A stretch of DNA of 64,000 bases from Candidatus Cloacimonadota bacterium (GTDB lineage Bacteria; Cloacimonadota; Cloacimonadia; Cloacimonadales; TCS61). Positions 20,156-43,553 of the stretch are shown one piece after another. The translations under genes and the position numbers were made by a program. The stretch is from the NCBI GenBank assembly GCA_030600585.1, contig JAUVLU010000006.1, forward strand, positions 1-64,000, written 5' to 3'. How positions within the stretch are numbered: the stretch's first letter is position 1; every line of letters starts with the position of its first letter. Under the pieces are notes generated by a model, which saw nothing but the letters and a program-made list of their open reading frames with translations, was not told the origin of the DNA and did not search any database.

Positions 20156-20157
20156 TT

Positions 20158-21039: not shown

Positions 21040-21041
21040 TT

Positions 21042-23156: not shown

Positions 23157-23166
23157 TATTTATCTC

Positions 23167-24384
23167 TCATGCAGAATAGGTTAACAAGTGTTGTATACGC
23201 TTTTTATTGTTTGCATAATTCATAGCTACTTCCTTTGTGATAATACCCTTTTTATAATTTGCGAAAAGATCTTGTTCCATTGATATCATTCCCTTTCTCT
23301 TACCTTCAGTTATCATCTGGTATATCTCACCAATATTCTTGTTCCTTATTGCTGCTTGAATTGATGAATCAACCGAAAGAATTTCTTTAACCATAATAAG
23401 TTTACCATGTTTGTCGGGAACGAGCTTCTGTGAAATGATAACTTTTAAAGTATCAGCAAGACGAAATCTAACACGCTCTTGTTCAATTGGTGGGAACTCG
23501 GCAACAATACGGTGAAGGCTATCTACAGCAGAACATGTATGTAATGTAGAAAAGACCTTATGACCACTATCAGTTGCTTCTAAAACTGTAGCAATTGTTC
23601 CGGGATCTCGCATTTCTCCAACAACAATTATATCGGGGTCCTGTCTTAATGCCTGAATAGTTCCTTCCTGAAAACTTAATACATCTTCTCCAATCTCTCT
23701 ATGTCTAACTATAGATTCAATTGAGTTATGAATATATTCAATTGGGTTTCCGATTATTATAATATGAGCATAGTTTGTCTTGTTGTTCATATCTACAATT
23801 GAATCCAAAGTACTGCTTTTGCCAGAACCAGTAATTCCTGTAACGAGGAACAATCCGGATTTCTCATATTTAAGATTGAGTTGTTTGTTGATTATTTCCG
23901 GGAAATTTAACTGCTTAATATCAAAAATATCTTGATTAATTCTACGGAAATTCGCAACTAAAGTATTTCTCTCATAATAAATATCACCCCGAAAACGATT
24001 TGGCTGTTCTCCTTTTTTAAGAATTAAACCTAATGAAATATCAACATTCTTATTATTAAATAACGTTACTTTTTGATCATCACTTAATATACTTAATAAA
24101 ATTGCAGATATTTCATCTTGTGTGAAATTATTTACTTTATCAGAAGGTGCTTTAGTACCATAAACTCTATACCATATCTTATTATTAGATCCTGGCCCAC
24201 CACAATCTATATCTGATGCTTCTATGTCTCTCATATGAATCATTAAAGTTCGCAGGCATTCGTATGATTCTTCTTTCCATGCTGTGTTGAATGTAATCAT
24301 TTTATTGATGCTTTGAAATCTTGATGTACCTTTGAGATATTTACCTAACATAACTTGCATCTCAGATAAGAATGATAAACTCAT
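23167..24384 (-). CDS. pilT: PilT-like type IV pilus retraction ATPase
   Basis: 405 residues. Walker A GITGSGKSS is near residue 185, the Asp box RQDPDIIVVGEMRD is followed by the His box STLHTCSAVDSLHRIV, and the PilT-type tail AIRNKNIGEIYQMI. The first ~130 residues form the PAS-like N-terminal domain, a little longer than in classical PilT (~345 residues). It disassembles pilin from the filament base to power retraction. It is the first gene of the pilT-pilMN-pilOP-pilQ transcription unit, with a promoter-like TTGACA-17-ATTCAT at 24426-24454. Confidence 0.9.
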   Translation of the reverse strand: MSLSFLSEMQVMLGKYLKGTSRFQSINKMITFNTAWKEESYECLRTLMIHMRDIEASDIDCGGPGSNNKIWYRVYGTKAPSDKVNNFTQDEISAILLSILSDDQKVTLFNNKNVDISLGLILKKGEQPNRFRGDIYYERNTLVANFRRINQDIFDIKQLNFPEIINKQLNLKYEKSGLFLVTGITGSGKSSTLDSIVDMNNKTNYAHIIIIGNPIEYIHNSIESIVRHREIGEDVLSFQEGTIQALRQDPDIIVVGEMRDPGTIATVLEATDSGHKVFSTLHTCSAVDSLHRIVAEFPPIEQERVRFRLADTLKVIISQKLVPDKHGKLIMVKEILSVDSSIQAAIRNKNIGEIYQMITEGKRKGMISMEQDLFANYKKGIITKEVAMNYANNKKRIQHLLTYSA

Positions 24385-24425
24385 ATAATCTCCAAAATTT
24401 CAATAAATATACTTTTCTGATAACA

Positions 24426-24454
24426 ATGAATAAATTTTTTGATATAAATGTCAA
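24426..24454 (-). promoter_or_regulatory. putative sigma-70 promoter of the pilT unit
   Basis: Minus-strand TTGACA (24449-24454), 17-base spacer, ATTCAT (24426-24431), 42 bases before the pilT ATG. The rest of the 24385-24661 gap holds the response-regulator terminator and no gene. Confidence 0.5.
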
Positions 24455-24606
24455 GTATATTTTGTTAACTAACTAATTTTTAGGGGGATATGGAGATTAG
24501 AAACAGATTTTCAAATATAGATATAATCACCTAACAGCTTGAAATAGAAGGGAATAGCAGGCGATGGACATGTAAAATAATAAAAAGTGTATTATATAAC
24601 AAAAAA

Positions 24607-24628
24607 AGCTTCCTATAGTAAGGAAGCT
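24607..24628 (-). terminator. intrinsic terminator of the pilin-to-response-regulator operon
   Basis: On the minus strand AGCTTCCTTACTATAGGAAGCT is followed by TTTTTTT, 34 bases after the stop of the response regulator. It separates the pilin/pilB unit from the pilT unit. Confidence 0.88.
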
Positions 24629-24661
24629 AAAACACTTAATATTATAAATTAATTGCCGGAA

Positions 24662-25510
24662 CTATTCTCTAGTAACCAGTTTTAACATTACGATTCTTTG
24701 AACAGCTTTACGCCATTTGAAGAAAGTGCTATTTACCAGATTGATCATAAAACGCTTAAGCAATTTTTCACCTTTGTACGCAAAGAAATTCAATATTTTT
24801 TTTCTATCAAAATGTCTTATCACTACAGTTGTTTCTGCACGTAAAGTAACAAAAGCAGATCCAGCAAGAATAAAGCTTTCTTCTCCAGAAGAATCCCACT
24901 TTTGCAAATAGTCGATTGTTGTATTACTATGCCAGACAGAAACTTCACCACTTTCAATAATAATAATAGATCCGGAATTCTTATCAATCAAAATATCTTC
25001 ACCAATCTCATATTTTATTGTCCTTCCTAAAGCCATAAAATCTACTTTATCTTCAGGAGAGAACCCATGAAGTATTATAGGCTCACCTTTTTGAACAGTG
25101 TCTGTCCCTGGTTCAAAAGCTCTTTGTAATGGACCGTAAAGGTCTTCTGATTGTTGGACTCCAGCTTTTACAACTGCGAAAAGTTCTTCTGAATTGATAG
25201 GTTTAGAGAGATATTGGAATGCACCCGCATGTAAAGCTTTCACGGCTCCATCGATACTAGAAAAACCTGTAAGGATCACGATTACGGCAAGTGGTTGTTT
25301 CTGTTTGATTATTTTCATCAGTTCGAATCCACCGATCCGTGGCATAGCCATGTCTATCAGAAACATGTCGAATACGTCGTAACCCATCTTATCAAGAGCA
25401 TCCTGCCCATCTACAGCCAAAGTTACTTTATAGCCTTCTTCTTCCAAAAGCTCTTTACATAATTCTCGAATTGTTTGCTCATCATCAACAATTAATATGT
25501 GCTTTTTCAT
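24662..25510 (-). CDS. response regulator with C-terminal cyclic-nucleotide-binding-like domain
   Basis: 282 residues. The receiver domain (1-~120) has the acidic DDE pocket, the phospho-acceptor in MFLIDMAMP (~D53), LTGFSS and the KPIN lysine. A linker leads to a beta-roll resembling cNMP-binding domains (GRTIKYEIGEDILIDKNSGSIIIIESGEVSVW), ending in a helical tail. No DNA-binding domain is evident, so the output may be protein interaction. It overlaps the stop of the upstream sensor gene by four bases and terminates the pilus operon, which suggests control of pilus assembly or retraction. Confidence 0.75.
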   Translation of the reverse strand: MKKHILIVDDEQTIRELCKELLEEEGYKVTLAVDGQDALDKMGYDVFDMFLIDMAMPRIGGFELMKIIKQKQPLAVIVILTGFSSIDGAVKALHAGAFQYLSKPINSEELFAVVKAGVQQSEDLYGPLQRAFEPGTDTVQKGEPIILHGFSPEDKVDFMALGRTIKYEIGEDILIDKNSGSIIIIESGEVSVWHSNTTIDYLQKWDSSGEESFILAGSAFVTLRAETTVVIRHFDRKKILNFFAYKGEKLLKRFMINLVNSTFFKWRKAVQRIVMLKLVTRE

Positions 25511-26421
25511 AATTTATCCTTGTTGTTTTTGTGTTGTTCCTGAATCAAATCCAATTGTTTTAATTTTCGAAGTTTTAGCAATATTTTATTAATCTTATTT
25601 ATTGCTTCTGTCATTTGGTTACTGGATTTCTCTAATTTCTCATCATTATAATCATGGGCAGCTTTAATTATTCTGCGAATTGAGAGAGAAATAATAGTAA
25701 GAGGATTGTTTAGGTCGTGGTCTAAACCAATAATTACAGAAGATTCTTGTACAACTTCCCGATATTTTTCCATGAGTATTTTATTATTCAGTAGTTCTGT
25801 TTCTTTTTCCGAAAGCACAATTTTCTGATCATTTAAAAATTTTATGTTTCTTTTCGAAGATGTAGAATACTGTCTTAGTATATTGCTTATATAACTTGAG
25901 ATGAAAGCTATTCCACTGAAAAGACCGGTATATGAGATGAGAAAAATGGTTTGAGTTGGAATATCAGCATTAAATTCCGTTCCATCAGCTGAAATAAGCC
26001 AGCCAAAGTTATACATTAAGATCAGCATTAATAGACACATACTGCCTATCATTGCGGCAAGTATACCACCGGAATTCTCAATAGCCAGACTTGCAGTAAT
26101 CACAGCGATCAGATATATCCATACAAAAGAACTACTCAACCCTCCGGTAAGATGGACCACAACAGTAGCAAATAAAATATCTAATATTATTTGCAACGAG
26201 CTAAAAAGAATATTTGTTTTTATGATTTGGAGATGAAACAGAATATTTAGAATACATATCCCAAGAAATGTTATCACAAATATTACAATCGGATAAGTTT
26301 GATTTATCTGAGTAATACGCAATGTACCAATGGCAAATAGGATTAAAACAATGAACCAGCGTACTTTTGACCACCATTTATAGGTCTCAATCTCATGATT
26401 AAAAGAGTCATTCTTATTCAT
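25507..26421 (-). CDS. membrane sensor histidine kinase-like protein without ATPase domain
   Basis: 304 residues. About six transmembrane helices (residues ~20-175) are arranged as in PilS-type sensors, followed by a cytoplasmic helix and a DHp-like segment with the H-box GLDHDLNNPLTIISLSIRR at ~235. The protein ends at a Lys-rich tail 60 residues later; the N, G1 and G2 boxes of the HATPase domain are completely absent. It could not autophosphorylate alone. It might be a phosphotransfer or scaffold protein, or a substrate of another kinase. It overlaps the response regulator gene by four bases. Confidence 0.75.
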   Translation of the reverse strand: MNKNDSFNHEIETYKWWSKVRWFIVLILFAIGTLRITQINQTYPIVIFVITFLGICILNILFHLQIIKTNILFSSLQIILDILFATVVVHLTGGLSSSFVWIYLIAVITASLAIENSGGILAAMIGSMCLLMLILMYNFGWLISADGTEFNADIPTQTIFLISYTGLFSGIAFISSYISNILRQYSTSSKRNIKFLNDQKIVLSEKETELLNNKILMEKYREVVQESSVIIGLDHDLNNPLTIISLSIRRIIKAAHDYNDEKLEKSSNQMTEAINKINKILLKLRKLKQLDLIQEQHKNNKDKL

Positions 26422-26447
26422 ATCTTCTCCAAAAATTATTTTACAAA

Positions 26448-27356
26448 TTAATCATCTTCAAACAAACTAATTATGTTGAGTTCATAATCTAAACTTAGTG
26501 ATGTACCTGAAAACGCATCAATTATTGCACCTATATCATAAGTAATTTGACAGTTACCAAGAAGGGTTACATCATCATACTCAATTCCGCCTTCGCAGTA
26601 AATTGCTCCGTTAAAACCGTCATTACCATTGATGAATAATGTTCCTGTAACCCACATTATCCCATTGAAAGTACCTCCTGAAAATTGTGCATCGCCGTCA
26701 ACAATAAGCAATCCACTTCCTTCCCAACCTGATGTTGTTACCTTCAATTTGCCGTTTTCATTATTGAATGAAACCCATGTTATGTTTTCAAAGCCAGTGG
26801 GGTTAATGGGAGGGTCTACAAAGTAGTTGTCTGCAATAGCATACATTTGCGCTTTTGTAATTCCGAAAAGATCTTCAAAAGATAAAGGAGGATCGCAGTT
26901 TTCATCAAGACTACCGGTAATATCGGCACTACCACCTACATCAATTGCTCCGTTTGAAGACATGGCTGATTGAGCGTAAGTGGGAACCCAAGATACAAGA
27001 GCACTGCTTTTATGTAGAATTATTTCATCAGCATTTTGATAGCTTGCATAAGAAATAATTTCTATGGTGTCATTTGTTGCATTTGATATATATTGAATAC
27101 TGTCTATTGTGCCTTCCATAACTTCGAAATTAGTAAAGGTCTGTGTATTGGTTCCCGGAGACATTGAAACGGTTCCATTATTGATGTTTCTCATCCCGTA
27201 TATAAGGGCTTCACGACATAATGCTTTAGCTTGTAATTCTGCAAGATTACTGGATAAAAGTTCCGGAACCTCTTGAGTTTTATTATGAACAAAAACTAAA
27301 ATTGTTGATATTATTGCAACAACTATCAATATGGCTATTATCAATAATTTACCCAT
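26448..27356 (-). CDS. PilX-like minor pilin-type protein, paralogue 2
   Basis: 302 residues. An N-terminal hydrophobic helix follows directly after MGK (LLIIAILIVVAIISTILVFV), then LAELQAKALCREALIYGMRNIN as in PilX-type proteins. The C-terminal half has a beta-helix-like repeat, GSGLLIVDGDAQFSGGTFNG, IMWVTGTLFINGNDGFNGAI, typical of pilus-associated PilX-like proteins. It is a tandem paralogue of the next upstream gene. A role as a minor pilin at the pilus tip or base is inferred from the operon. Confidence 0.65.
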   Translation of the reverse strand: MGKLLIIAILIVVAIISTILVFVHNKTQEVPELLSSNLAELQAKALCREALIYGMRNINNGTVSMSPGTNTQTFTNFEVMEGTIDSIQYISNATNDTIEIISYASYQNADEIILHKSSALVSWVPTYAQSAMSSNGAIDVGGSADITGSLDENCDPPLSFEDLFGITKAQMYAIADNYFVDPPINPTGFENITWVSFNNENGKLKVTTSGWEGSGLLIVDGDAQFSGGTFNGIMWVTGTLFINGNDGFNGAIYCEGGIEYDDVTLLGNCQITYDIGAIIDAFSGTSLSLDYELNIISLFEDD

Positions 27357-27394
27357 AAATTACCTCCTTATATAATTTAAATTTTCTCATCAAT

Positions 27395-28300
27395 TTAATT
27401 TTCCCAACTTAATATCCTGATTTCCGGATCAGAATTAATACTATATGTACTTAATAATGTTTGTATAATATTTTCATCATAATAAACATCACAATTTCCA
27501 GTAACTTTGGTTTGTGCATCAGGGTGAGTATTAATGAAAATGGTTCCTTGTACAAGCCCATTACCTGACATCATGAAACTTTCGTTCCTTCCGTCTCCTT
27601 CCACCCAGATGATACCATCGAAAGTACCGCCTGTCATGTGAAATTCTCCATCAACTATCAAGATACCGCTACCAGTCCAAAAATGATTTGTAAAATGTGC
27701 TTTGTTGTTGCCGGTGGTCTCTATGTATGTTATCCCTTCTACAGGAGTAACATTATTTGGCGGATCCGTGTAATCATTATCGGCAATAGCTCTCATTTGT
27801 GCCATTGTCATACCGAAAACAGCTTCAAAATCCATATCAACATTTTCCTCTACATCACCTACGACGGTTGCGTGACCTGTAATATCAATTTCTTTTGAAC
27901 AGGTAATGGCATTATCAAAAGCTCCCGAAGAATAAAAAATCTTAGAGGAACTTTGATGTTGGGTAAGTTGCCCATTGATATCAGCAGTCACAAAAGAAGT
28001 TATCTTCAGAGTATCTCCGGAGCCGATCATCACATATTTGATACTGTCAATTGTGCCATCCAAAACGTTAAAATTCGAAAATACTTTATTCACACCGGAT
28101 CCACTTAACGAAATGTTACCTTCGTTCAACTGTCTAATGCCGTACATAAGAGCCTCATTACTTAGAGACTTAGCTTTAATTTCCGACATATTAGAAGAAA
28201 GCAGATCAGAAGTGTCAGTGCTTCTACTTTGAACCGAAACTGTAATAGCAGAAAAAACAACTGTTAGCATTAGAATAATAATAATTAATAATTTTCCCAC
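27395..28300 (-). CDS. PilX-like minor pilin-type protein, paralogue 1
   Basis: 301 residues with the same plan as its downstream paralogue: MGK leader, hydrophobic helix 4-23, LLSSNMSEIKAKSLSNEALMYGIRQLN, a variable middle, and the beta-helix-like GSGILIVDGEFHMTGGTFDG, IIWVEGDG, MMSGNGLVQGTIF. The shared phrase MRAIADNDYTDPP / MYAIADNYFVDPP marks recent common ancestry. Likely a minor pilin of the same apparatus. Confidence 0.65.
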   Translation of the reverse strand: MGKLLIIIILMLTVVFSAITVSVQSRSTDTSDLLSSNMSEIKAKSLSNEALMYGIRQLNEGNISLSGSGVNKVFSNFNVLDGTIDSIKYVMIGSGDTLKITSFVTADINGQLTQHQSSSKIFYSSGAFDNAITCSKEIDITGHATVVGDVEENVDMDFEAVFGMTMAQMRAIADNDYTDPPNNVTPVEGITYIETTGNNKAHFTNHFWTGSGILIVDGEFHMTGGTFDGIIWVEGDGRNESFMMSGNGLVQGTIFINTHPDAQTKVTGNCDVYYDENIIQTLLSTYSINSDPEIRILSWEN

Positions 28301-28369
28301 AAATATCTCCTTTTTATTCCTAATTCATCATTAACTTTTCTGTCAATTCATTTCCTGAAAACATCATAT

Positions 28370-28966
28370 TTATAGATACAGATTTTTAAAATATTTCCAG
28401 AATACTATATTATGTCTAATGAATCTTTTATCTATATCCGGTTGGTAAGTATCATAGTAAAAAGTAACATTAACTTCAACTGAACGAATCAGGTCATGAT
28501 TTGAATCTGGAGAAGTAATTAGGTTATTACTTACATCGTAATATTGAATTGATAATGAATCTGACATCCAGAAAGGACCTGAAACCGGATTAGACATATC
28601 ATCTTGATAAACATATAAAGGTAAACCGTCGCTTGTTACATTTTCTTGTACAAAGTAGAAAGTGCTAATGCCGGATGTCGGACTCGTCTGACCGAGGAAT
28701 TTGAAGCTTATAGAAGTAGCTTCAATTATTGGATCAGTGGTTGAAGGAACTCCCGCACCGACTTTGGATAAGTAATTATCAATACCAGGTTGATCTAAGC
28801 TTTCTACTTTCCTGCCGGTGATCATATCTTCAGATATCTTGGTTAAATTGATCTGAAGTTGGGTATTATAGCTTACCACCTGCACATTTAAAAGTGCGCT
28901 GAATATCATTATAAGTACCATGCCTCCTGAAATCGTTGCACCTAATACATCCAATAAACTTGACAT
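28370..28966 (-). CDS. minor pilin/pseudopilin-like protein
   Basis: 198 residues. A hydrophobic N-terminal helix (VLGATISGGMVLIMIFSALLNV) is followed by an amphipathic helix and a beta-rich C-terminal region. There is no canonical prepilin leader with GFTLIE. It starts two bases after the stop of the 144-residue gene. Position between pilB and the PilX-like genes supports a minor pilin role; the specific family was not recognised. Confidence 0.55.
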   Translation of the reverse strand: MSSLLDVLGATISGGMVLIMIFSALLNVQVVSYNTQLQINLTKISEDMITGRKVESLDQPGIDNYLSKVGAGVPSTTDPIIEATSISFKFLGQTSPTSGISTFYFVQENVTSDGLPLYVYQDDMSNPVSGPFWMSDSLSIQYYDVSNNLITSPDSNHDLIRSVEVNVTFYYDTYQPDIDKRFIRHNIVFWKYFKNLYL

Positions 28967-28968
28967 AA

Positions 28969-29403
28969 TTAAAATCCTCTATTAAAAAACACTTTACTGA
29001 ATGGAGAGTTTAATGTTCCTATGTACAATGTATCCATTGTCGTGGATAGGCAATTAATGCGTACATCAAGTTTTTGATATAAAGTATCAGCATATGGAGT
29101 ATTTCCCAAACTATCACAATAAGTTGAAATAACGTTAATATTATATATGACATTATTCACAGTTCTTGTTTCACTAAGATTTAAGTAATTAGAATGAATT
29201 TGTGTGAAATAAAAAACTGGAGGATCACCAAGTAGTTCTGCTTCAACTCTCTGGAAGTACCTGTCGGCGATTTTTTGTCCTTGCAGGTAAATCATGTTAT
29301 CATAAACCAAAGCAGATTGATCCAGTAAAATATTATAAGTATTCAACAACATTGTAGAAAAAAGTATTAATGCTAAAAGAACTAATAACATCTGTTGACC
29401 CAT
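28969..29403 (-). CDS. small minor pilin/pseudopilin-like protein
   Basis: 144 residues. It begins MGQQMLLVLLALILFSTMLLNTY, the same MG-plus-hydrophobic-helix start as the major pilin and the PilX-like proteins, then a long amphipathic helix (IYLQGQKIADRYFQRVEAEL) and a short beta domain. It is encoded three bases downstream of pilB. Likely a minor pilin; family not recognised. Confidence 0.55.
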   Translation of the reverse strand: MGQQMLLVLLALILFSTMLLNTYNILLDQSALVYDNMIYLQGQKIADRYFQRVEAELLGDPPVFYFTQIHSNYLNLSETRTVNNVIYNINVISTYCDSLGNTPYADTLYQKLDVRINCLSTTMDTLYIGTLNSPFSKVFFNRGF

Positions 29404-29406
29404 GAT

Positions 29407-31191
29407 CTAATCCTCTGAAGTTGCATAAGTTATTTCGGAAACGGAAGTCATTCCAGTCCGAATTCTATCTAATCCCGAGTCCATTAATGAAAGCATTCCC
29501 TGGCTTTCAGCAATTGCACGGATCTCATCTTCATCTATATCTTCACCCGATTCTACAATAGCTTTTCTTATTTCAGGTGTAAAATACAATGCTTCACAAA
29601 TATTGGTTCTGCCTTTATACCCACCATTGCATTTTTTGCATCCATCACCCGCTTCGAATATTTTACCGGATTTAAGTTCTTCTTCGGTAATTCCCATATC
29701 AAGTGCTGCAGGCCATCTTTCTTTTGAGATTGGTCTTTTGCACTTCAAACATAATTTTCTTACTAAACGTTGTGCAATAATAATGTTTATTGCGTAGGCT
29801 AGCAGGAACGTCTCTACTCCCATTTTGTACATACGTGAAATTGCACTAGGTGCATCGTTTGTATGCAATGTGGAAAAAGTAAGATGACCCGTATTTGCCA
29901 GTTTGATAGCAATTTCAGCTGTGATCTTGTCACGGATCTCGCCAACCATAACTACATCCGGGTCGTGACGAAGTATGGAACGAATAGCAGAATCAAATGT
30001 ATATCTATTTCCTATTTTTAGTTGTCTTGCACCCTTAATATGGTATTCAACCGGATCTTCAACTGTTAGGACATTGATAGCAGGATTAATAATATGATAA
30101 AGTGCTGCCATCAAAGTTGTGGATTTACCACTACCGGTAGGTCCTGTAACCAGAATAATTCCCTTTGATTTACTGATCGATTTTAAAAAATCATTTTCAG
30201 CTTTAGTCTGGAAACCAAGTTTTCTTAAGTCGGTGATAACATTCCTGTCATCAATTGTCCTGATAACAATGCTTTCAAATCTTCTTTCGTATTCAGATGA
30301 TGTAATTGGTATAATTGAAACTCTAAAACGGATAAGATGATCATCAACTATTCTTTGCATAAAGCCGTCTTGAGCAGTATCTCTTTCAAAACGATCGACA
30401 CCGACAGCTCTATCTTTCACAACTGCAGATATTGCTTCTGGTGATGTTCTTTCCTGTCTGTGCCAACGGATGAGTTTGCCATCAATTCTGAAATAAAAAT
30501 CCACAGATGATCTGCGGTATGGAATTATATGTACATCACTGGCACCCTTTCGCACAGCTTCTATTAAGCAACCTTCAAATAGATTAACAAGAAGGCTTTG
30601 GTTGATCTCTTCATCAAGGGCATATTCATCGATCTCCGCTTTAAATTTTGATTCATCCATATCCTCTATTTGTTCTTCAGCTTCTTGAAGTAGATCCAGA
30701 AATTCATTTTTCTGCGGGGCGATAATCCCAATTAATTCTTCTAGTGTTTTTAATTTACAATATACAACTTCGTATTTTTTAAATTCGGAATAAACAGGTA
30801 TCCGCTCAGTGATTTTATCTGTTGGATCTGCTGCTAGAACTATGAGTGTATTGCGTCTTCCAAAACTTAACTGATATGGCAAGATTCTTTTATAGATTAA
30901 TTCTTTTCTAAATTCTTCAGGAAACTTTAACAGCAGTTCAGTTGTATGTTTTATTTGATTACTATCCAGTTCATTTACATTAATATCAATAGAGCGAAAA
31001 GCATATAATTCTGCCAGTAAACCATAAATAGCATGATGATCGATCTTAAAATCATCAGCTAGTATTTCACCTAATCCTCTGGGATTTGAAGGATCATCAC
31101 CAGCTTGAATAATTAGTGCTTTCTCCAATGTTTTCTGATCAATTACCTCTTTTTTGAGTAATAATTGACCAAATCTGGATTTCCTGATCAA
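29407..31191 (-). CDS. pilB: PilB/GspE-type pilus extension ATPase
   Basis: 594 residues. The MshE-like N-terminal domain (FGQLLLKKEVIDQKTLEKAL) is followed by the ATPase core: Walker A GPTGSGKSTT at ~350, LRHDPDVVMVGEIRD, STLHTNDAPSAISRM, and the zinc tetracysteine CLKCKRP/CKKCNGGYKGR at ~480-515. All catalytic motifs are intact. It powers pilin polymerisation. It lies downstream of pilC in the sigma-54-promoted operon with 14-base spacing. Confidence 0.93.
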   Translation of the reverse strand: MIRKSRFGQLLLKKEVIDQKTLEKALIIQAGDDPSNPRGLGEILADDFKIDHHAIYGLLAELYAFRSIDINVNELDSNQIKHTTELLLKFPEEFRKELIYKRILPYQLSFGRRNTLIVLAADPTDKITERIPVYSEFKKYEVVYCKLKTLEELIGIIAPQKNEFLDLLQEAEEQIEDMDESKFKAEIDEYALDEEINQSLLVNLFEGCLIEAVRKGASDVHIIPYRRSSVDFYFRIDGKLIRWHRQERTSPEAISAVVKDRAVGVDRFERDTAQDGFMQRIVDDHLIRFRVSIIPITSSEYERRFESIVIRTIDDRNVITDLRKLGFQTKAENDFLKSISKSKGIILVTGPTGSGKSTTLMAALYHIINPAINVLTVEDPVEYHIKGARQLKIGNRYTFDSAIRSILRHDPDVVMVGEIRDKITAEIAIKLANTGHLTFSTLHTNDAPSAISRMYKMGVETFLLAYAINIIIAQRLVRKLCLKCKRPISKERWPAALDMGITEEELKSGKIFEAGDGCKKCNGGYKGRTNICEALYFTPEIRKAIVESGEDIDEDEIRAIAESQGMLSLMDSGLDRIRTGMTSVSEITYATSED

Positions 31192-31205
31192 AACAACTCC
31201 TTAGA

Positions 31206-32549
31206 TTACATTCCTGGTGTATTCGGTGAAATCATTGCAACTTCAGAAGAAACAACGGTAAGTGCTGTAATAACTATTGCAATGAAAATACCAATAAATA
31301 CCTGGATAGATTGGATAATATTCTCCATTTTGTAAGTTGTTTCTTTTTCATAGAAAGTGGCGATCTGCTGTGCAGATTGAAGAATATTACCTGATTCGGT
31401 ACCGGTCGTTAAACGACTAAGTGTACTTTGATTAAAAACATCGGCTTTTTCCAGCGCAGGTACAAGTGACATTCCATCTTTTAACATTAATGGAATTGTA
31501 ATTTCTTTTATACCCTTTTCAATATACTTATTCCTACAAGCTTCAGATGAAGCTTGTAGGGTCTCAATATTATTTTCTGCTCCTGCATAGATTGCTGAAA
31601 ATACCCGGAAGAAAATTTCAATGCTGGATTTATGGATAAGATGCCCAACAACAGGCAATTTTATCATATTCTTATCACGCCAAACCATGCCTTTGGGGGT
31701 ACGCCACCAAAGGGCTGCTAAAATTATAGGGATAACAATTATTGAAACTATCCACCACCAGTTCATAGCTAAATAATCACTTATGTTAAGTGTTGCTGCT
31801 GTCATGGGTGGAAGATCAATACCAAATTTAAGGAACATCTTAGCAGTGTCGGGAAATACTTTTATAACATAATACATTACGGCTCCAAACATTGCCAGTA
31901 CAGTGAAAGCCGGCATCATCAAAGCTTGGCGCAAACTTTTTTTGTATTCCATTTCACGTTCCATGAATTTAGCAGTTGCATCATAAACTTCTGCCATATT
32001 ACCGGATTTTGTAGCCAATCCAAGCATATAAGCTGGGAATTTCCCAAATACATCCTGATGTTTTGCGAAAACTTCAGTTCCTTCCTTTCCTTTTTTTAAC
32101 TCACTTTCGATTTTCTTTAATGTTTCTTTAAGAGTTAGATTTGTCTCTTCATCTGCAAGCATGCGTAAAATTTTATCATAACTCATTTTTTCTTTTAAAA
32201 GAAAGGAACTCAAGTTTACGAACATTAGAATGCTGGAATAAGGTGGTTTCATCTTTATATCGATGATAGCTTTTTCAATCTTGGCATTCTTATAACCCAT
32301 ATTAGCCAGAGCACGACTTACTTCACCTTTTGTATATGCGAATTGTCTTCCTTTAACTTTTTTCCCGTTTGGTAATTTTATATTATAAAGAAATAAACTT
32401 TTTTTGAGAATTGAATTAATTCTAATACTATGTTTTTTGGCAAAGTTATCGATCACCTTTTTTGCCATTCTTTTGTTTGAAGCTAGAACAATTCCCTGAA
32501 TGCCCTTGCCTTGAGTGGTTATACCTTGATACCTAAATTCGTACTGCAT
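31206..32549 (-). CDS. pilC: PilC/GspF-type inner-membrane platform protein
   Basis: 447 residues. The N-terminal ~100 residues form the unique cytoplasmic extension (YRYQG-type start, KKVIDNFAKKHSIRI), then two GspF helical domains: LLKEKMSYDKILRMLADE, MREMEYKKSLRQAL and transmembrane segments near 210-230, 262-285 and 418-440. The C-terminal FYEKETTYKMENIIQSIQVFIG is the typical family end. It links the motor ATPases to the pilin fibre. It is preceded by a long perfect hairpin that separates it from the major pilin gene. Confidence 0.92.
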   Translation of the reverse strand: MQYEFRYQGITTQGKGIQGIVLASNKRMAKKVIDNFAKKHSIRINSILKKSLFLYNIKLPNGKKVKGRQFAYTKGEVSRALANMGYKNAKIEKAIIDIKMKPPYSSILMFVNLSSFLLKEKMSYDKILRMLADEETNLTLKETLKKIESELKKGKEGTEVFAKHQDVFGKFPAYMLGLATKSGNMAEVYDATAKFMEREMEYKKSLRQALMMPAFTVLAMFGAVMYYVIKVFPDTAKMFLKFGIDLPPMTAATLNISDYLAMNWWWIVSIIVIPIILAALWWRTPKGMVWRDKNMIKLPVVGHLIHKSSIEIFFRVFSAIYAGAENNIETLQASSEACRNKYIEKGIKEITIPLMLKDGMSLVPALEKADVFNQSTLSRLTTGTESGNILQSAQQIATFYEKETTYKMENIIQSIQVFIGIFIAIVITALTVVSSEVAMISPNTPGM

Positions 32550-32583: not shown

Positions 32584-32617
32584 AGTAATATGGGAAGACA
32601 AGTCTTCCCATATTACT
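32584..32617 (-). terminator. perfect 16-bp hairpin between pilin and pilC (attenuator or mRNA stabiliser)
   Basis: AGTAATATGGGAAGAC-AA-GTCTTCCCATATTACT: a perfect 16-base stem with a two-base loop, 30 bases after the pilin stop. On the minus strand it is followed by GTATTTTAAATA rather than a clean T-run, so it probably attenuates readthrough or protects the pilin mRNA 3' end rather than fully terminating. Confidence 0.7.
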
Positions 32618-32647: not shown

Positions 32648-33079
32648 TTAGTTAGTTACAGTTGCTGATATAGTGCTTGTTGAACCAGTAATTGTAAGAT
32701 AACCACCAACATTAGCTGAACCATCATTACCTGTTTCTGTTCCAAGACCAGTAATTGTTAATACATCAGTAGCAATTGAAAGAACATATGTTCCATTACC
32801 TGTAGAACAAGTATTGGCAGGATTGCCGCTAGTTTCATAGTCATAACCAAGCCACTGTCCAACATCATCTGTGGTTCCCCATGCATTTCCACCCCCACCG
32901 TGTGTATCTGGTGTTTTGTAATATGCCAAAGCTGAAGCTGCCAGATTGTTCATATCACCCATGATTGCTGTACGGTTAGAGTTTGTAGCTTGCGCATTGA
33001 ACATTGTGATACCCACCGCAACTGCAATACCAACGATAATTACGCTTAATACGATCAATAGAATTTGTTGTGTTCCCAT
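32648..33079 (-). CDS. major pilin-like protein with non-canonical leader
   Basis: 143 residues: MGTQQILLIVLSVIIVGIAV then AVGITMFNAQATNSNR, a single N-terminal helix followed by a helix (MGDMNNLAASALAYYKTP) and a Thr/Gly-rich beta domain with two cysteines absent or single (one Cys at ~91). It lacks the basic leader and the conserved GFTLIE with Glu5 of type IVa pilins; if Gly2 is the processing residue the leader is two residues long. Placement first in the operon, a sigma-54 promoter and a hairpin behind it support its being the major pilin. GGAGGG precedes the ATG. Confidence 0.75.
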   Translation of the reverse strand: MGTQQILLIVLSVIIVGIAVAVGITMFNAQATNSNRTAIMGDMNNLAASALAYYKTPDTHGGGGNAWGTTDDVGQWLGYDYETSGNPANTCSTGNGTYVLSIATDVLTITGLGTETGNDGSANVGGYLTITGSTSTISATVTN

Positions 33080-33148
33080 TATACCCTCCTAATTTGGTTT
33101 TAAGTTCACTTTTTAATTCACTCTTTTTAAATTCACACCAAATTACAT

Positions 33149-33164
33149 TGCAAATAGTGTGCCA
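33149..33164 (-). promoter_or_regulatory. sigma-54 promoter of the pilin operon
   Basis: Minus strand TGGCACACTATTTGCA: the -24 GG and -12 GC dinucleotides are exactly ten bases apart and it matches the TGGCAC-N5-TTGCA consensus. It lies about 70 bases before the pilin ATG. Type IV pilins are classically sigma-54/PilR controlled, and an NtrC-type activator is encoded at 37776-39182. The remaining 33165-33395 is AT-rich, with a plus-strand TTGACA-17-GATTAA at 33344-33372 likely serving gtrA, and no gene. Confidence 0.85.
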
Positions 33165-33343
33165 ATGCAATATTTTTAATAAAAAACTCAATTACTTTTT
33201 CGTAAACTACTTTATTAAGCTGTTTTAAAACATGCAAGGAAAAAATTAATTAAAGTGAAAAAAAATTGAGAAAGCATTAATATGTCATAGAAAAATTACA
33301 TTAAAAATCTATATGTAATGATATTATGTCGAAAATACAATTC

Positions 33344-33372
33344 TTGACAAAAAAAAGTAGCTTAATGATTAA
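33344..33372 (+). promoter_or_regulatory. putative promoter of gtrA operon
   Basis: AATTC directly before TTGACA (33344-33349), 17-base spacer, GATTAA. The AATTCTTGAC core recurs at several other promoter positions in the window. Confidence 0.45.
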
Positions 33373-33395
33373 TAATCCAAAAAAAGAAGATAAAT

Positions 33396-36514: not shown

Positions 36515-37779
36515 ACAAATATTGGAAGATCTTCCTTAATTTTCTTCTAATATATTCCATCTTAATGTCTGCGATCTGTATTTCATTTGATACTGTCAAC
36601 ACTTTAAAATATGGTGCTTTAGATCTTCGTAACCGTGTTGTTGGAACAAGAGTTTTATTGAATGGAGAAGATCCCTATTTTTTCAAATGGGAACAGGATA
36701 CACCGGAAGAAATAGTTGATGCACGGGATTTTTATTCTAATTTCCCAATGAGTAGACTAACTGTTCCTCCAACTGTGCTTATGCTTCATTCACCTTTTGC
36801 TTCAATTCCTTACAAAATGCAGCAGATTTTGTGGGCATTTATTCAATGGTTACTACTTCTTCTAAGTGTTATTCTGTTTTCAAATACAACTGATTCCATT
36901 ATTAAAAAGAAGATTCTCTGGATAATTGGTCTATTGATCATTGCATCGAGTTTTTTCTGGAGACTGCATATTGATAAAGGGCAGATTTATATCCTATTTG
37001 TATTTCTTATTTCCTTATCGTATTGGTTTGCTAAAAGAGAGAAGAATTACATTCTCAGTGGTTTCATTTTAGGGTTAACCGCTTCTTTCAGACCACCTGT
37101 GATATTAATGGGTATCCCGTTCCTTATTAAAAGAAAATGGAAATTTATTATCAGTGGTCTTGCAGGAATAATAATAAGCTTCATATCTTCTTTGTTTATT
37201 GCTCCATTCTCAATTTGGAAAAGTTATTTTAATTCTATGGAGTTTCATGAAAAATTTCATTTACTTATAATTCAGCCAACCTATGGTTTTTTTAATAAGA
37301 ATGTTGTAGATGGAATAAAGAATGCAATATTCTCTGCAAATATAGCAATGGAAGATTCTTCTATTCAAGATATGTTCCGTATTTTCTTTCATCTAAAAAT
37401 TAAAGCGAATATTCTTGAATTATCTTTGATCATTTGTATCTTAGTTTTAACTATCTTTTTATGGAGAAGAATAGTAAAAACAAAAGACAGTGTTTCTCTT
37501 TTTTATATTGGGATAATATTTGTAATTATCAGTAGTTTTTTCCTTCCGGCAGCTCGTCTTTCATATATCAATATTTATTGGCTGTTGCCATTATCACTGA
37601 TTGTTATTAAAACAGATGATATTAAGTGGATATTAAAACCGGAATTAATACTATTAATAGTAGGAATAGGCTTGAATACTATGTTTAGAATATTTCCCAA
37701 AGGAGTTATACTGAGTGACTATTTAATAGTATTTTATTTAGTAATTATAACATTTAGAATAACAAATTCCAAATATTAA
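36496..37779 (+). CDS. GT87/DUF2029-like membrane glycosyltransferase, paralogue
   Basis: The ORF track begins at the ATG at 36565, but the open frame continues upstream to 36487 and encodes [20 protein letters not shown], which aligns with the N-terminal helix of the preceding paralogue. No ATG, GTG or TTG exists there; AAGGAG (36485-36490) stands five bases before an ATC codon at 36496, which I take as the likely non-standard start. If the ATG is used, the protein is 404 residues and loses half of its first helix. It shares [29 protein letters not shown] and HIDKGQIYILFVFL with its paralogue. It overlaps that gene's end by 19 bases. Confidence 0.65.
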   Translation: MTSEEINKYWKIFLNFLLIYSILMSAICISFDTVNTLKYGALDLRNRVVGTRVLLNGEDPYFFKWEQDTPEEIVDARDFYSNFPMSRLTVPPTVLMLHSPFASIPYKMQQILWAFIQWLLLLLSVILFSNTTDSIIKKKILWIIGLLIIASSFFWRLHIDKGQIYILFVFLISLSYWFAKREKNYILSGFILGLTASFRPPVILMGIPFLIKRKWKFIISGLAGIIISFISSLFIAPFSIWKSYFNSMEFHEKFHLLIIQPTYGFFNKNVVDGIKNAIFSANIAMEDSSIQDMFRIFFHLKIKANILELSLIICILVLTIFLWRRIVKTKDSVSLFYIGIIFVIISSFFLPAARLSYINIYWLLPLSLIVIKTDDIKWILKPELILLIVGIGLNTMFRIFPKGVILSDYLIVFYLVIITFRITNSKY

Positions 37780-39182
37780 TTATCCCTGAAATCATCGGGA
37801 TTAATATTACAACGTTTAAACTTATCGTAAAGATTCTGACGTTTTATATCTGATATTCTGGATGCTTTTGTAACATCACCATCGCATTTATTCATAAGAC
37901 TTTCTATGTATTTTTTTTCAAATTTCATTTTAGCTTCATGATAAGGTAATTCAAGAAAATGAAATGTTGTGGAATCAGGTTCTTTTGATTCTCCTTTGTA
38001 AATGTAATCAGGCAGATCTTCGGGAATGATCGTATCGTGTGAAGCAAGAGCAACAGCGTGTTCTATGGTGTTTTTCAGCTCACGTATATTTCCTTTCCAT
38101 TGATGGTTCAAAAGAATGGATAGAGTAGCATTTGATATTTTGAGTTCTTGTTTTTTGTATTTATTGGAAAATCCGGATATGAATTTGCTTACGAGAAGCT
38201 TGATATCTCCGACTCGCTCCCGTAATGGCGGAATATGCAAATTGATCACATTTAACCGATAATAAAGATCTTCTCGAAGATTCTTGTTAACTATTTCTTC
38301 TTCTAAATCTTTGTTAGTCGCTGCGATTATTCTTACATCAACGGTAACATCACTCTCACCACCGACTTGTCTGATAATACCTTTTTCTAAAGCTCTTAAC
38401 AATTTTACTTGGAATTCAAGACTGGTTTCAGTGATCTCATCGAGAAACAGTGTTCCTCCATCAGCTTCTTGAAAATATCCAATTTTGTCTTTGATCGCAC
38501 TGGTAAAGGATCCTTTTTTATGACCAAAAAGAGTGCTTTCTAAAAGGTTTTCCGGTAAACTTCCGCAGTTGATAGCAACAAAATTTTTATTACTTCTGCT
38601 GCTGTTTCGATAGATCAGATCGGCAATGAGTTCTTTGCCTACACCTGTTTCTCCGGAGATGAGAATAGTTGTATCAAGTGGTGCGATCTTTTTTACTTTT
38701 TCCATAATCTTTTGAATAGCCAAGCTGTTCCCGACAATATGAGTTCTATCAAATTCTTTATCTAAAATAGATCTCAATCTTTTGATCTCATCTGTCTGCC
38801 ATTTAGCTTTTAATAATTTTTCTATTTTCAACTTAAGCAGATCAAGATCTTCCACAGGTTTTTCAATAAATTCATCAGCACCTATTTTCATTGCATTTAC
38901 AGCCATCTCGATCGATGCTTTACCGCTGATTACCATTACAGCAATTTCCGGCCAATTCTTTTTGATTTTTTTTAGTAAGCTCAACCCGTCTTCACCAGGC
39001 ATTACAAGGTCACTAAGTGCAATCTGATAAGAATTATTTTCCAATTTTTCTAAGGCAGCCATAGCTGAGTCTGCTGTGTCGATCAAGTATTCATCTTCCA
39101 GGTGTCTTCTGAAAATATCTCTGGTATCTTTTTCATCATCTACTATCAATATCTTAGCTTTCTTCCCATTATTCTCGAACAT
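37776..39182 (-). CDS. NtrC-family sigma-54-dependent response regulator
   Basis: 468 residues: receiver (1-~125; ALSDLVMPGEDG with phospho-Asp, KPVED), AAA+ domain (~140-375; Walker A GETGVGKE, Walker B GGTLFLDEI, R-fingers in LREDLYYRLNV) and a FIS-type HTH (VTKASRISDIKRQNLYDKF). The sigma-54 contact loop, normally GAFTGA, reads GSFTSA. It is the last gene of a three-gene signalling cluster, four bases after the kinase. The sigma-54 pilin promoter 4.6 kb away is an obvious candidate target. Its stop overlaps tail-to-tail with the glycosyltransferase stop. Confidence 0.92.
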   Translation of the reverse strand: MFENNGKKAKILIVDDEKDTRDIFRRHLEDEYLIDTADSAMAALEKLENNSYQIALSDLVMPGEDGLSLLKKIKKNWPEIAVMVISGKASIEMAVNAMKIGADEFIEKPVEDLDLLKLKIEKLLKAKWQTDEIKRLRSILDKEFDRTHIVGNSLAIQKIMEKVKKIAPLDTTILISGETGVGKELIADLIYRNSSRSNKNFVAINCGSLPENLLESTLFGHKKGSFTSAIKDKIGYFQEADGGTLFLDEITETSLEFQVKLLRALEKGIIRQVGGESDVTVDVRIIAATNKDLEEEIVNKNLREDLYYRLNVINLHIPPLRERVGDIKLLVSKFISGFSNKYKKQELKISNATLSILLNHQWKGNIRELKNTIEHAVALASHDTIIPEDLPDYIYKGESKEPDSTTFHFLELPYHEAKMKFEKKYIESLMNKCDGDVTKASRISDIKRQNLYDKFKRCNINPDDFRDN

Positions 39183-39186
39183 ATAA

Positions 39187-41280
39187 CTATCCTTTTGTTT
39201 GTGGTAAAATTAGAGTGAATGTCGATCCAAAATCCGGCTTGGAATTAACTTTGATCTCACCATTATATTTTTCAATTATACTTTTTGTTATTGCCAGTCC
39301 AAGCCCGAAACCAGTTCCCGATTTTCCAACTTTGGTAGAGAAATATGTTTCGAATATTTTATTCAGATTATAGTCAGGAATTCCTTCTCCCGTATCTGTA
39401 ATTTCGGTGTAGACCATTTTGTTTTTTTCATAAGTACGGATCGTGAGTTCCTTTTGTATACTATCTTTTATTGCCTGAATAGCATTATTTATAATATTGG
39501 CAACACAAAGACTTAAATCACCGTAAGATGCTGTAACGTTAGGAATATCTTTTTGGAAATCTGTGGTAAGTTTTACATAGTGTTTGAAGAAGAGATTATG
39601 TTTGCAAAACTCCAGTTCTTGTGAGATCATCTCATTAATATCAATTGGGCGGTCTATTGATATATTACTTTGTTTCACTTTTGTTAATAAGCCCTTAACT
39701 GTTTGTGCAATATTTTTACCGGCTTCTATTATTCTATCTAAATCTGTATTATCTTTCATGTCCTTCTTCATAAGTTGAGCATAGCCCAATACAGCGTTCA
39801 AAGGGGAATTGATATTATGAACTATACCCTCGATTCTTTTGCCGATGTCAGCAAGTTTGTTACTTTTTATCAATTCCAGTTCAAGTGATTTTCTTGCTTC
39901 TGTTTCCATGATCTCTTTTGAAACATCTATAATACTGCCAAAAAATTTGATACTTGCATCATGTTTTACAGCACTAATATTCAATGCTACATATTTTAAT
40001 TTTTTGTTTGGGTATATCTTTAAATTTGAAAACGTTAAAGGTGCCTTATATAATTTTGCAAATTGTTTTTTATCCAATCCTATTAATCTACTCAAATTCT
40101 GGTGGATCAGATGATTTTCATTCATTTCCATAATTTTAATAAAACTGGGATTATACAGGATCACTTCAAATTTATGATTCAACCAGAAAATGCCGGTATC
40201 CAGATTATCGGTCAACTCTTTGTATTCACGTAGGGTTTGACCATGTTTAGATAGGGCAATATTCATAGTATTAAAAGATGTAACCATATCTCCCAATACA
40301 CCGGAATATCGTTTTTCAATAGGTTCCAATTTAGATGGATTTTTGGCAATATCCTGCATGTTATTACTAATATTCCTTACCGGAATTAAAATTGTTTTAC
40401 TGAACCAATTACCAAGTAAGCTTATCATGATCAATGTAACAGCGAGAAGAATGAGAACAAATATGAGGATACTCTGCTGCACAAATTGATTTACATATCT
40501 CTTATATGAAATTATGAAAACTCCGGTTGGTTTATTTGTAAGATCGTAGAATATTTTGATACCGGCAGCATTATAAATATTGAATTTCTTAATAGCTTGT
40601 TCCATTTTTTTTTCAGTCATGGATTCAATCATGTTATTGATATCTGAAACAGTAAGATTACCGGGGATTGTATTTTCAGAAAGTGTCTTATCATATGAGA
40701 TCAAGTTTACTTCGGAATCAGTGCTGAGGTTCAAATTATTCACATCGAAATTTTCTGCAATGATAAGAACACCCAGAAGCTCTTTTTTTTCAGTTGAAAT
40801 AAAAATAGGATCGTATGTTATCTGGAATAGCCGATTACCGTAATTTCCGATGAATCCTCCAGAATGTTCTTTAGAAATATCTCGATATATCTGAGACAGA
40901 TATTTATCTATAAATTCCCATTGTTCTCCAAAAATATATTTTCGTTGTTTATTGCAGATAATAAGCTTATTAATTTTATCGGTCTGATAATTTTGTGTAA
41001 GATGATCTTTGATAAGGTTTTTGTTTCCTTTCTGCAATGCTTCAATAATTATCTTGTCAATTTCAAGTCTTTGCAGAAAATTTTGTTGTTCCATATTCAT
41101 CTCAGCACGTGTGATCTTCAATTCGGAAAGGGTCAGCCTGATGTCCATGTCTTCATATTGATTTATTCCGAATCTGGCTAATTGCCACTCGATTAAGATC
41201 AAAATGAGCACAAGAATAAATGTTATAATAAAAAATAATACAAAGATCCTTTTTTCTAGTTCTGCTTTTCTATTTTTCAA
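39187..41280 (-). CDS. membrane sensor histidine kinase
   Basis: 697 residues: transmembrane helix 13-33, an extracytoplasmic double-Cache-like sensor (~35-275), a second helix (SILIFVLILLAVTLIMISLL), HAMP, a PAS domain (~355-465, TGIFWLNHKFEVILYNPSFI), HisKA with H-box IEGIVHNINSPLNAVLGYAQ, and a full HATPase (NIINNAIQAI, DTGEGIP, GTGFGLGLAITKSII). It probably phosphorylates the adjacent NtrC-type regulator. The 21-base gap to the upstream hybrid kinase indicates an operon. Confidence 0.92.
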   Translation of the reverse strand: MKNRKAELEKRIFVLFFIITFILVLILILIEWQLARFGINQYEDMDIRLTLSELKITRAEMNMEQQNFLQRLEIDKIIIEALQKGNKNLIKDHLTQNYQTDKINKLIICNKQRKYIFGEQWEFIDKYLSQIYRDISKEHSGGFIGNYGNRLFQITYDPIFISTEKKELLGVLIIAENFDVNNLNLSTDSEVNLISYDKTLSENTIPGNLTVSDINNMIESMTEKKMEQAIKKFNIYNAAGIKIFYDLTNKPTGVFIISYKRYVNQFVQQSILIFVLILLAVTLIMISLLGNWFSKTILIPVRNISNNMQDIAKNPSKLEPIEKRYSGVLGDMVTSFNTMNIALSKHGQTLREYKELTDNLDTGIFWLNHKFEVILYNPSFIKIMEMNENHLIHQNLSRLIGLDKKQFAKLYKAPLTFSNLKIYPNKKLKYVALNISAVKHDASIKFFGSIIDVSKEIMETEARKSLELELIKSNKLADIGKRIEGIVHNINSPLNAVLGYAQLMKKDMKDNTDLDRIIEAGKNIAQTVKGLLTKVKQSNISIDRPIDINEMISQELEFCKHNLFFKHYVKLTTDFQKDIPNVTASYGDLSLCVANIINNAIQAIKDSIQKELTIRTYEKNKMVYTEITDTGEGIPDYNLNKIFETYFSTKVGKSGTGFGLGLAITKSIIEKYNGEIKVNSKPDFGSTFTLILPQTKG

Positions 41281-41301: not shown

Positions 41302-43212
41302 TTAATTATCAAGGATCTTTCTGATCTTTGACATAATAGAATCATATGTAAATGGTTTATGAAGAAAACTTACATTTGAGTCGGGTGATTGTTCTTTAAT
41401 GAAATCGTTATTGACATTCCCGGAAATAAAGAGTATTTTAATATCAGGTTGGAGTTTTCTTAGTTCATTTGCCAGTTCCTGTCCACCCATCTTTGGCATT
41501 ATAATATCGGAGATCAATAGATGAATTTTGTCATTAATTTCTTTGAACTTACGTAAACCTTCTTTACCATTTGATGCATTAATAACTTTGTATCCATGTT
41601 CTTCCAAAATTTCAGATAGGAAATCTCTGATGCTGTCTTCATCATCAACAAGCAGGATTGTCTCATTACCGGTAGGAAGACTGCCGATATCTGTTTTTGC
41701 AATTTCGTCTTCATCGATTTCTGCAATAATTTGTGGAAGATATATCTTGAATTCGGAACCCCTGTCTTCTTCTGATTCAACAAGTATCACTCCGCCATTT
41801 TGTTTTACGATCCCAAAAACAGTAGAAAGACCAAGACCGGTACCCTTACCAACTTCCTTAGTTGTAAAGAAGGGCTCAAATATTTTCTCCTGAATCTCTT
41901 TACTCATCCCTGTTCCTGTATCAAGTATGGAAATCATTATATACTCATAAGATGCATCAAGATTATGCTGTTTAATGAATTCTTCAGTTAGTAACTCTTT
42001 GGTTGTAGATATTATGATCTTGCCATAACCTTTTATTGCATCACGAGCATTAACAACAAGATTAACCAGTACTTGTTCGATCTGGCTTTTATCTGCAAAT
42101 ATCATACATGAAGAACTTTGGAAATCAGTCTCCATAGTTATTTCATCCCCGATCAATCTTTTAAGCATTTTCTCAAGTTCGATAATAGTATTGTTCAGGT
42201 CGATATTTCTTTTTTCAGTTATTTGCTTTCGTGAAAATCCGAGTAATTGTTTTGTTAATCTTGCAGCTCGTTCTCCACAATCTCTAATTACTTTAATATC
42301 ATCATAAACATTGCTGTCATTATTCAATTTTTTTAGAGCCAGATCGGAATAGCCGTTAATTGCTGTTAATAAGTTATTAAAATCATGTGCAATTCCACCT
42401 GCAAGTTTTCCGACAACTTCCATCTTTTGAGATTGGAACAATTGTTCTTGAGCAATCTGTCTTTCATCTTCAGCCTGTTTACGTTTAGTTATATCACGGG
42501 CAATAACTAAGAGTACCTGTTCATTCTTAAAGGTTATATTATTTTTATGCAGTTCTACTATTATTTTTTTACCATTTTTTTTAATATGAGTAAATATGGG
42601 AGAATCACCGGTGTTCTTCTCATTCAAATATCGTGACAGTTGTTCCCGCTCTTTTTTAACATAAAGTTTAAAACCATTTAATGCGATAAACTCGTTTTTT
42701 GTATATCCGTATTTATTTAATACAACGTCATTAAAATCCAGGATTTTTTCTCCATTTTTGGTAAGTATAAAAATGGGATCTGCAATACTATTGAAAAGGA
42801 GACGGTATTTTTCTTCGCTTTCGCGAAGAGAGTTCTCAATTTTATGCCGGTAAAAAGCCATCTCGATTGTTGCATGCAATTCATGTCCTTCAAAAGGCTT
42901 TATCAAGTAACCAAAAGGCTCGGTGATCTTTGCACTACTTAAAATAGGTTCATTCGTATATGCGGTTAAATAAATTATTGGAATGTTGCATTTTTCCTTT
43001 ATTCTACCGGCAGTTTCGATACCGTTGATTTTTCCGGCAAGCATAATATCCATTAAAATCAGATCAGGATTTAATGCTTCATAGCATTCAAGTACACTTT
43101 CTCCACTAGAAATAATATCAATGACATGATAGTCAAATTGAAGTAATGTTCTCTTTATATCCTCAGCAATGATTCTTTCATCTTCAACGATCAATAACCT
43201 TTTTTTTGTCAT
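41302..43212 (-). CDS. hybrid kinase with two receiver domains (REC-PAS-HisKA-HATPase-REC)
   Basis: 636 residues, no transmembrane segment. Residues 1-~120 are a receiver (DLILMDIMLAGKINGIE, LTAYTNE, IKPFEG); a PAS domain follows (~135-250, LLFNSIADPIFILTKNGEK), then HisKA with GGIAHDFNNLLTAINGYSDL, HATPase (VVNARDAI, DTGTGM, GKGTGLGLSTVFGIV), and a C-terminal receiver (LLVDDEDSIRDFL, LLISDIIMPKMGG, HKPF). This is a cytosolic phosphorelay kinase. It is first in the operon with the membrane kinase and the sigma-54 regulator. A weak TTGACC-17-ATTTTT lies upstream near 43290. Confidence 0.92.
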   Translation of the reverse strand: MTKKRLLIVEDERIIAEDIKRTLLQFDYHVIDIISSGESVLECYEALNPDLILMDIMLAGKINGIETAGRIKEKCNIPIIYLTAYTNEPILSSAKITEPFGYLIKPFEGHELHATIEMAFYRHKIENSLRESEEKYRLLFNSIADPIFILTKNGEKILDFNDVVLNKYGYTKNEFIALNGFKLYVKKEREQLSRYLNEKNTGDSPIFTHIKKNGKKIIVELHKNNITFKNEQVLLVIARDITKRKQAEDERQIAQEQLFQSQKMEVVGKLAGGIAHDFNNLLTAINGYSDLALKKLNNDSNVYDDIKVIRDCGERAARLTKQLLGFSRKQITEKRNIDLNNTIIELEKMLKRLIGDEITMETDFQSSSCMIFADKSQIEQVLVNLVVNARDAIKGYGKIIISTTKELLTEEFIKQHNLDASYEYIMISILDTGTGMSKEIQEKIFEPFFTTKEVGKGTGLGLSTVFGIVKQNGGVILVESEEDRGSEFKIYLPQIIAEIDEDEIAKTDIGSLPTGNETILLVDDEDSIRDFLSEILEEHGYKVINASNGKEGLRKFKEINDKIHLLISDIIMPKMGGQELANELRKLQPDIKILFISGNVNNDFIKEQSPDSNVSFLHKPFTYDSIMSKIRKILDN

Positions 43213-43351: not shown

Positions 43352-43426
43352 TGGTTGGGCCGAGAGGATTCGAACCCCTGAATGCATGGACCAAAACCAT
43401 GTGACTTACCGCTTGTCGACGGCCCA
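43352..43426 (-). tRNA. tRNA-Gln(UUG)
   Basis: Minus strand starts TGGGCCGTCGACAAGCGG. The anticodon stem-loop is CATGG-TTTTGGT-CCATG (anticodon TTG), the T-arm is GGTTCGAATCC, and CCA is encoded. Confidence 0.95.
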
Positions 43427-43446
43427 AAAGATCTATAATTAAGAAC

Positions 43447-43540
<94 letters not shown>

Positions 43541-43553
43541 ACTTCTATAATTC

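Follow-up and report, generated by a model that had tools for sequence, protein, structure and literature searches.

The gene of a putative major pilin in this Cloacimonadota bacterium is most probably (with a probability of roughly 0.85) transcribed by sigma-54 RNA polymerase from a promoter element at 33164-33149, and turned on by an NtrC-type activator dedicated to it, the product of 37776-39182, which would act from a pair of dyads at 33283-33331. This reading is based on the promoter and its conservation, on the presence of rpoN, on the linkage of the activator gene to the pilin gene and on a dyad pair that is conserved and unique. The window, which is the whole 64-kb stretch of DNA that was analysed, is part of a genome of 2.58 Mb in 89 contigs that is 97% complete. 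The target gene and its promoter are:

32648-33079, minus strand: major-pilin-like gene, the target of the promoter (143 aa, beginning MGTQQILLIVLSVIIVG), as judged from an alignment of 33 homologues, a structure model and a fold match.
33149-33164, minus strand: sigma-54 -24/-12 promoter element TGGCACACTATTTGCA, a consensus match that is conserved upstream of homologous pilin genes.

The minus strand reads 5'-TTGGCACACTATTTGCAA, in which the 16-mer TGGCACACTATTTGCA (33164-33149) is directly preceded by TT. Judged by its sequence, this is a textbook -24/-12 element, TGGCAC-N5-TTGCA, having GG at -24, GC at -12 and the correct spacing (TTGGCAC-N5-TTGC); the consensus is quoted as YTGGCACG-N4-TTGCW (PMC2725144). 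The element ends 69 bases before the pilin ATG (33079), which bears out the preliminary description of a near-perfect element 70 bases before this ATG. By arithmetic from the -12 C at 33150, the transcription start is predicted near 33138, with a leader of about 58 nt, for which no Rfam family match is found. The 16-mer has its sole exact match in the window here, where 0.04 are expected, and pattern searches of the 2.58-Mb genome find TGGCAC-N5-TTGC five times (the pilin site, one other intergenic site and three sites inside genes), as compared with no match for the reversed-pattern control. The relaxed pattern TGGNAY-N5-TTGCW has 40 matches in the genome versus 6 in the control; this pattern is three-fold commoner and its matches, many of which are probably chance, are set aside as evidence. 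Another site-like match is seen at 31278-31293, within the PilC coding region. The rpoN gene, whose presence had been singled out as a check on the promoter, is found and is intact (PF04552, 1.3e-47), being a single open frame of 485-492 aa.

The homologues of the window pilin are almost all from Cloacimonadota, and the promoter was surveyed in 59 fetched loci encoding such homologues, within 200 bp of the pilin ATG, using random windows from the same 59 loci as the control. A score of at least 9/11 is reached in 50 of the 59 pilin loci versus 2.7% of the control windows, a score of at least 10/11 in 36 of 59 versus 0.3%, and a perfect -24/-12 score in 14 of 59 versus 0.05%. In all 50 sites the T, G and G at positions 0-2 and the T and G of TTGC are invariant, and the distance from the promoter to the ATG is 55-114 bp in all but two sites. 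Four of the nine loci without a site (L036, L057, L063 and L064) hold second pilin copies, and another copy in the same genome has the site. In this survey, a sigma-54 pilin promoter is conserved throughout the phylum, and a chance match at the pilin promoter is ruled out by the genome count, the control windows and the conservation.

The 143-aa protein has no match to any Pfam or NCBIfam model. Its AlphaFold model (pLDDT 86) has a 53-residue N-terminal helix followed by a beta domain, and the best PDB match of this model is full-length PAK pilin (1oqw), with a probability of 0.99 and a TM-score of 0.59, but with an E-value of only 0.04. The gene is followed in the same operon by homologues of PilC, PilB/GspE, PilT and PilQ, and because of this context, the predicted structure and the fold match, the identification of 32648-33079 as a pilin gene holds. 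The N-terminus, MGTQQ-LL--L-VIIVG, is invariant in the 33 homologues.

18974-32549, minus strand: rest of the pilus operon, encoding PilC-like, PilB/GspE-like and pilin-like proteins, a PilS-like stub, a receiver-cNMP protein, PilT, PilM/N-like proteins and PilQ.

The PilS-like stub (25507-26421, minus strand) is a 304-aa protein with a six-helix membrane domain (Pfam 6TM_PilS) and a HisKA H-box (DHD-NNPL), having an invariant D-H-D motif and ending after HisKA, with no ATPase domain. The next gene in the operon (24662-25510) encodes the receiver-cNMP-binding-like protein. Both proteins are conserved through Cloacimonadota, and they are possibly a split PilS or a phosphotransfer pair.

The activator and the kinases that would feed it are encoded upstream of the pilin gene:

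37776-39182, minus strand: NtrC-type sigma-54 activator, the proposed controller, assigned from Pfam matches, synteny, a tree and a loop alignment.
39187-41280, minus strand: sensor histidine kinase HK1 with PAS, HisKA and HATPase domains, encoded upstream of the activator at a distance of 4 bp.
41302-43212, minus strand: hybrid histidine kinase HK2 (REC-PAS-HisKA-HATPase-REC), the first gene of the kinase-activator operon.

The activator has the domains of the NtrC family, which are a receiver (PF00072), a sigma-54 AAA+ domain (PF00158, 1.3e-67) and a Fis-type HTH (PF02954), and the receiver Asp residues, the Walker region and the HTH are all present. The two kinases that had been described beside it are confirmed, each having HisKA and HATPase domains. 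HK1 adjoins the activator in nearly all genomes of the family, and from the gene order it is likely to be the partner and phosphodonor of the activator; HK2 probably also feeds into it. Immediately upstream of this operon there are three tRNA genes (43355-43639, minus strand).

The orthologues of the activator share 45-87% identity, as compared with about 35-43% for the paralogues, and in the tree they form a single clade (support 100/100) that is separate from the paralogues. In 14 other loci the orthologue is on the same strand as the pilin gene and ends 120-734 bp before the pilin ATG. In six loci (the window, L009, L010, L017, L024 and L029) it lies 1.8-6.9 kb upstream of the pilin gene with genes between, the distance in the window being 4.7 kb with four intervening genes. 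Where examined, the gap in these distant-activator loci is occupied by GtrA-like and FAD-dependent genes, and a fragment of the GtrA-like gene is retained in the gap of L018. Given the direct adjacency in 14 loci, the gap genes in six and the fragment in L018, the ancestral order appears to be kinase-kinase-activator-promoter-pilin, with the window showing a derived state. The adjacency in the 14 other loci also strongly supports the suggestion of the preliminary description that the signalling cluster is linked to pilin expression and that the NtrC-family protein at 37776 is a plausible controller. In the Cloacimonas-type genomes (L148-L157), the orthologue, with a GAFTDA or GSFTDA loop, shares its operon with an aminotransferase-like gene and with genes for ABC transporter permeases, these family names being assigned by eye; it lies between the permease genes and a protein of roughly 200 aa with a HisKA-like H-box.

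Between the promoter and the divergent GtrA-like gene, the following elements are found:

33283-33300, strand not assigned: candidate enhancer, proximal dyad TGTCATAGAAAAATTACA, from phylogenetic footprinting; the pair is unique in the genome and enriched over control windows.
33314-33331, strand not assigned: candidate enhancer, distal dyad TGTAATGATATTATGTCG, 31 bp from the proximal dyad, on the same basis.
33344-33349, plus strand: TTGACA, likely a -35 hexamer that serves the divergent GtrA-like gene (33396) and is conserved wherever a locus keeps this gene.

The two conserved 18-bp dyads, TGtmAT-N6-ATkACA, are seen when the upstream regions of the genus are aligned. They are 31 bp apart in nearly all related loci (29-32 bp overall), and in most loci the pair is centred some 124-148 bp from the GG, the distance upstream of -24 being about 145 bp in the window, which by position places the candidate pair within the 80-200 bp before a promoter where an upstream activating sequence is expected. 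Both dyads fall inside the interval 33165-33395 that had earlier been proposed for footprinting the regulator. A pair scoring at least 18/20 is present in 23 of 28 related loci versus 0.9% of the control windows and 0.4% of shuffles, fractions that are descriptive since the consensus was fitted partly on the sequences scored; in the genome the pair occurs once, at 33283-33331. It is mostly lost in the Cloacimonas-type loci (kept in 2 of 29), where the activator orthologue has left the pilin region. In L039 and L041, where a distant orthologue lies beside the pilin gene, the conserved motif reads as GTCA/GTGACA dyads, as expected if the site and the protein changed together. This distribution suggests that the dyad pair is likely an enhancer, namely the binding site of the activator. 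The enhancer-promoter distances fall into groups (124, 131-137 and 144-148 bp), but a test for periodicity gives a weak result and helical phasing is not claimed.

In the proposed mechanism, RNA polymerase with sigma-54 would sit at 33164-33149 in a closed complex, awaiting the activator. The activator, phosphorylated mainly by the adjacent HK1, would bind as dimers at both dyads, assemble into a ring, loop over and remodel sigma-54 using ATP, thereby acting as a dedicated pilin regulator and as the functional counterpart of PilR. From the observations described above we infer the binding, the phosphorylation, the looping and the pilin gene as the sole target.

Between the dyads and the promoter lies the block CTTGCATG-TTTAAAACAGCTTTATAAAGTCGTTT (33198-33239), whose strong conservation is confined to the genus; it may be a second promoter or the site of an architectural protein. 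It is conceivable, although unlikely, that there are two promoters, with a sigma-70-type promoter in this block (minus strand) providing basal expression and the sigma-54 promoter providing induction, as the block contains TTGCAT-N17-TAAAGT, which can be read as -35/-10. The sigma-70 consensus scan does not list this site, however, the matches in the upstream region are no more than chance, and the neighbouring clade, which retains the dyads and the sigma-54 site, does not conserve the block. Such a promoter would in any case supplement, not replace, the sigma-54 reading.

The contact loop of the window activator is GSFTSA instead of GAFTGA. Across 49 orthologue rows, G1, F3, T4 and A6 are invariant and the pattern is G-[AS]-F-T-[DSGN]-A, with D (20), S (16), G (11) or N (2) at position 5, so that D, S or N is present in 38 of 49. 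Among the other sigma-54 activators of related genomes (47 rows, of which one, L238, is an orthologue, leaving 46), position 5 is G in 45 of the 46 readable loops and D, S or N in 1 of 46. In NorR, Bush et al. exchanged the second Gly of GAFTGA for every other residue; activity was constitutive with D and N, partly regulated with S, Q, C and M, and absent with the rest (PMC2941729). For Desulfovibrio, GAFTDA has likewise been judged a variant that permits activation (PMC4641369). The natural residues at position 5 are thus within the set permitted in NorR, which, by analogy, argues for a working pilin activator despite its GSFTSA loop and suggests that repression by the receiver may be weaker. 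A further-reaching interpretation, which is not very probable, is that the loop of this phylum-wide pilin regulator has drifted to D, S or N, with which NorR escapes the repression exerted by its regulatory domain, making the activator partly or wholly independent of its receiver. The partner kinase of the D-fixed clade would then have shrunk to the H-box protein of roughly 200 aa, and the split PilS of the pilus operon, with its membrane domain and HisKA without ATPase, would give pilin feedback instead.

Improbable, too, is a sigma-54-dependent pilin promoter that is controlled by one or several of the remaining sigma-54 activators, of which the genome has three (C25:61315, C61:15656 and C9:563). 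These all have a canonical or near-canonical loop (GAFTGA or GSFTGA), the window activator with its GSFTSA loop lies at a distance from the pilin gene, and the Cloacimonas-type loci retain the pilin promoter while the orthologue of the 37776 activator sits elsewhere. None of the three is beside a pilin gene in any fetched locus, however; the operon of the C25 activator is itself equipped with a consensus sigma-54 site, and the dyad pair tracks whether the pilin locus includes the 37776 orthologue. We infer that the 37776-39182 protein, rather than one of these three, binds the candidate dyads. In the Cloacimonas-type genomes, which keep the promoter although the orthologue lies in another place and the dyads are hard to make out, a different activator may therefore serve the pilin gene. 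Least plausible is that the GSFTSA protein makes no sigma-54 contact and is a repressor or an ordinary regulator, with the -24/-12 match as a relic, since, although the loop is generally critical and most substitutions in it abolish activation (PMC2941729), only its position 5 varies here, with residues that in NorR are compatible with activity, and the sigma-54 promoter is itself conserved.

In Geobacter sulfurreducens, pilA directly follows pilR, and 5'-RACE has mapped a sigma-54 promoter in front of pilA (PMC2725144). The direct-adjacency loci of Cloacimonadota have the same order of an NtrC-type activator gene directly upstream of a pilin gene with a sigma-54 promoter, whereas in the window four unrelated genes are inserted between the two, position 5 of the Cloacimonadota loop is mostly not Gly, and of the two kinases one is a PAS kinase and the other a hybrid kinase that contains REC. 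In Pseudomonas aeruginosa, the major pilin gene is likewise driven by sigma-54 and a response-regulator activator, and the six membrane segments of PilS bind pilin for autoregulation (PMC6058289). Here, the 6TM_PilS domain is instead on the separate stub protein of the pilus operon, and neither HK1 nor HK2 has a 6TM_PilS match. The Cloacimonadota dyad also differs from the site of PilR in P. aeruginosa, which is TGT-N11-AGA with GTCT elements (PMC6058289), and no NCBIfam PilR model is above cut-off for the activator. By analogy, the Cloacimonadota unit, with its activator gene linked to a pilin gene that has a sigma-54 promoter, would work like PilR-pilA of Geobacter and Pseudomonas, but it is not filed as PilS-PilR because its kinases are not PilS-type. 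The comparison with the G266 variants of E. coli NorR concerns laboratory mutants of a one-component NO sensor, as opposed to natural residues in a receiver-domain activator.

No account of pilus regulation in Cloacimonadota was found in the literature searched. The promoter, the candidate enhancer, the activator and the kinases together make up a regulatory unit that can be tested throughout the phylum, and sigma-54 control of the major pilin would extend past Proteobacteria in essentially the Geobacter arrangement. What appears to be new is the unusual contact loop in a proposed pilin activator, otherwise functionally like PilR, whose gene was apparently next to the pilin gene originally. 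The D/S/N variation at the residue mutated in NorR is a natural series that bears on the way in which the GAFTGA loop ties regulation to the contact with sigma-54.

The second intergenic consensus sigma-54 site of the genome (L073:4751, G000:C25:57750) precedes an operon that has a GAFTGA activator of its own, besides genes for a histidine kinase and a secreted Glu-rich protein; this looks like a self-controlled envelope-type response. The invariant pilin start, MGTQQILL, is without the usual leader and Glu5, and if cleaved after Gly2 the leader is two residues; the remaining pilin-like proteins of the pilus operon start with MGKLL or MGQQM, and a prepilin peptidase (PF01478) is found at G000:C60:72392. 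A hairpin is seen after the pilin gene:

32584-32617, minus strand: 15-bp hairpin with a 4-base loop, between the pilin and PilC genes, its pairing kept in relatives.

This hairpin has no Rfam family match, and its pairing is kept while its sequence changes between clades. It is likely an attenuator or an mRNA stabiliser, and it probably separates high pilin expression from low expression of the machinery.
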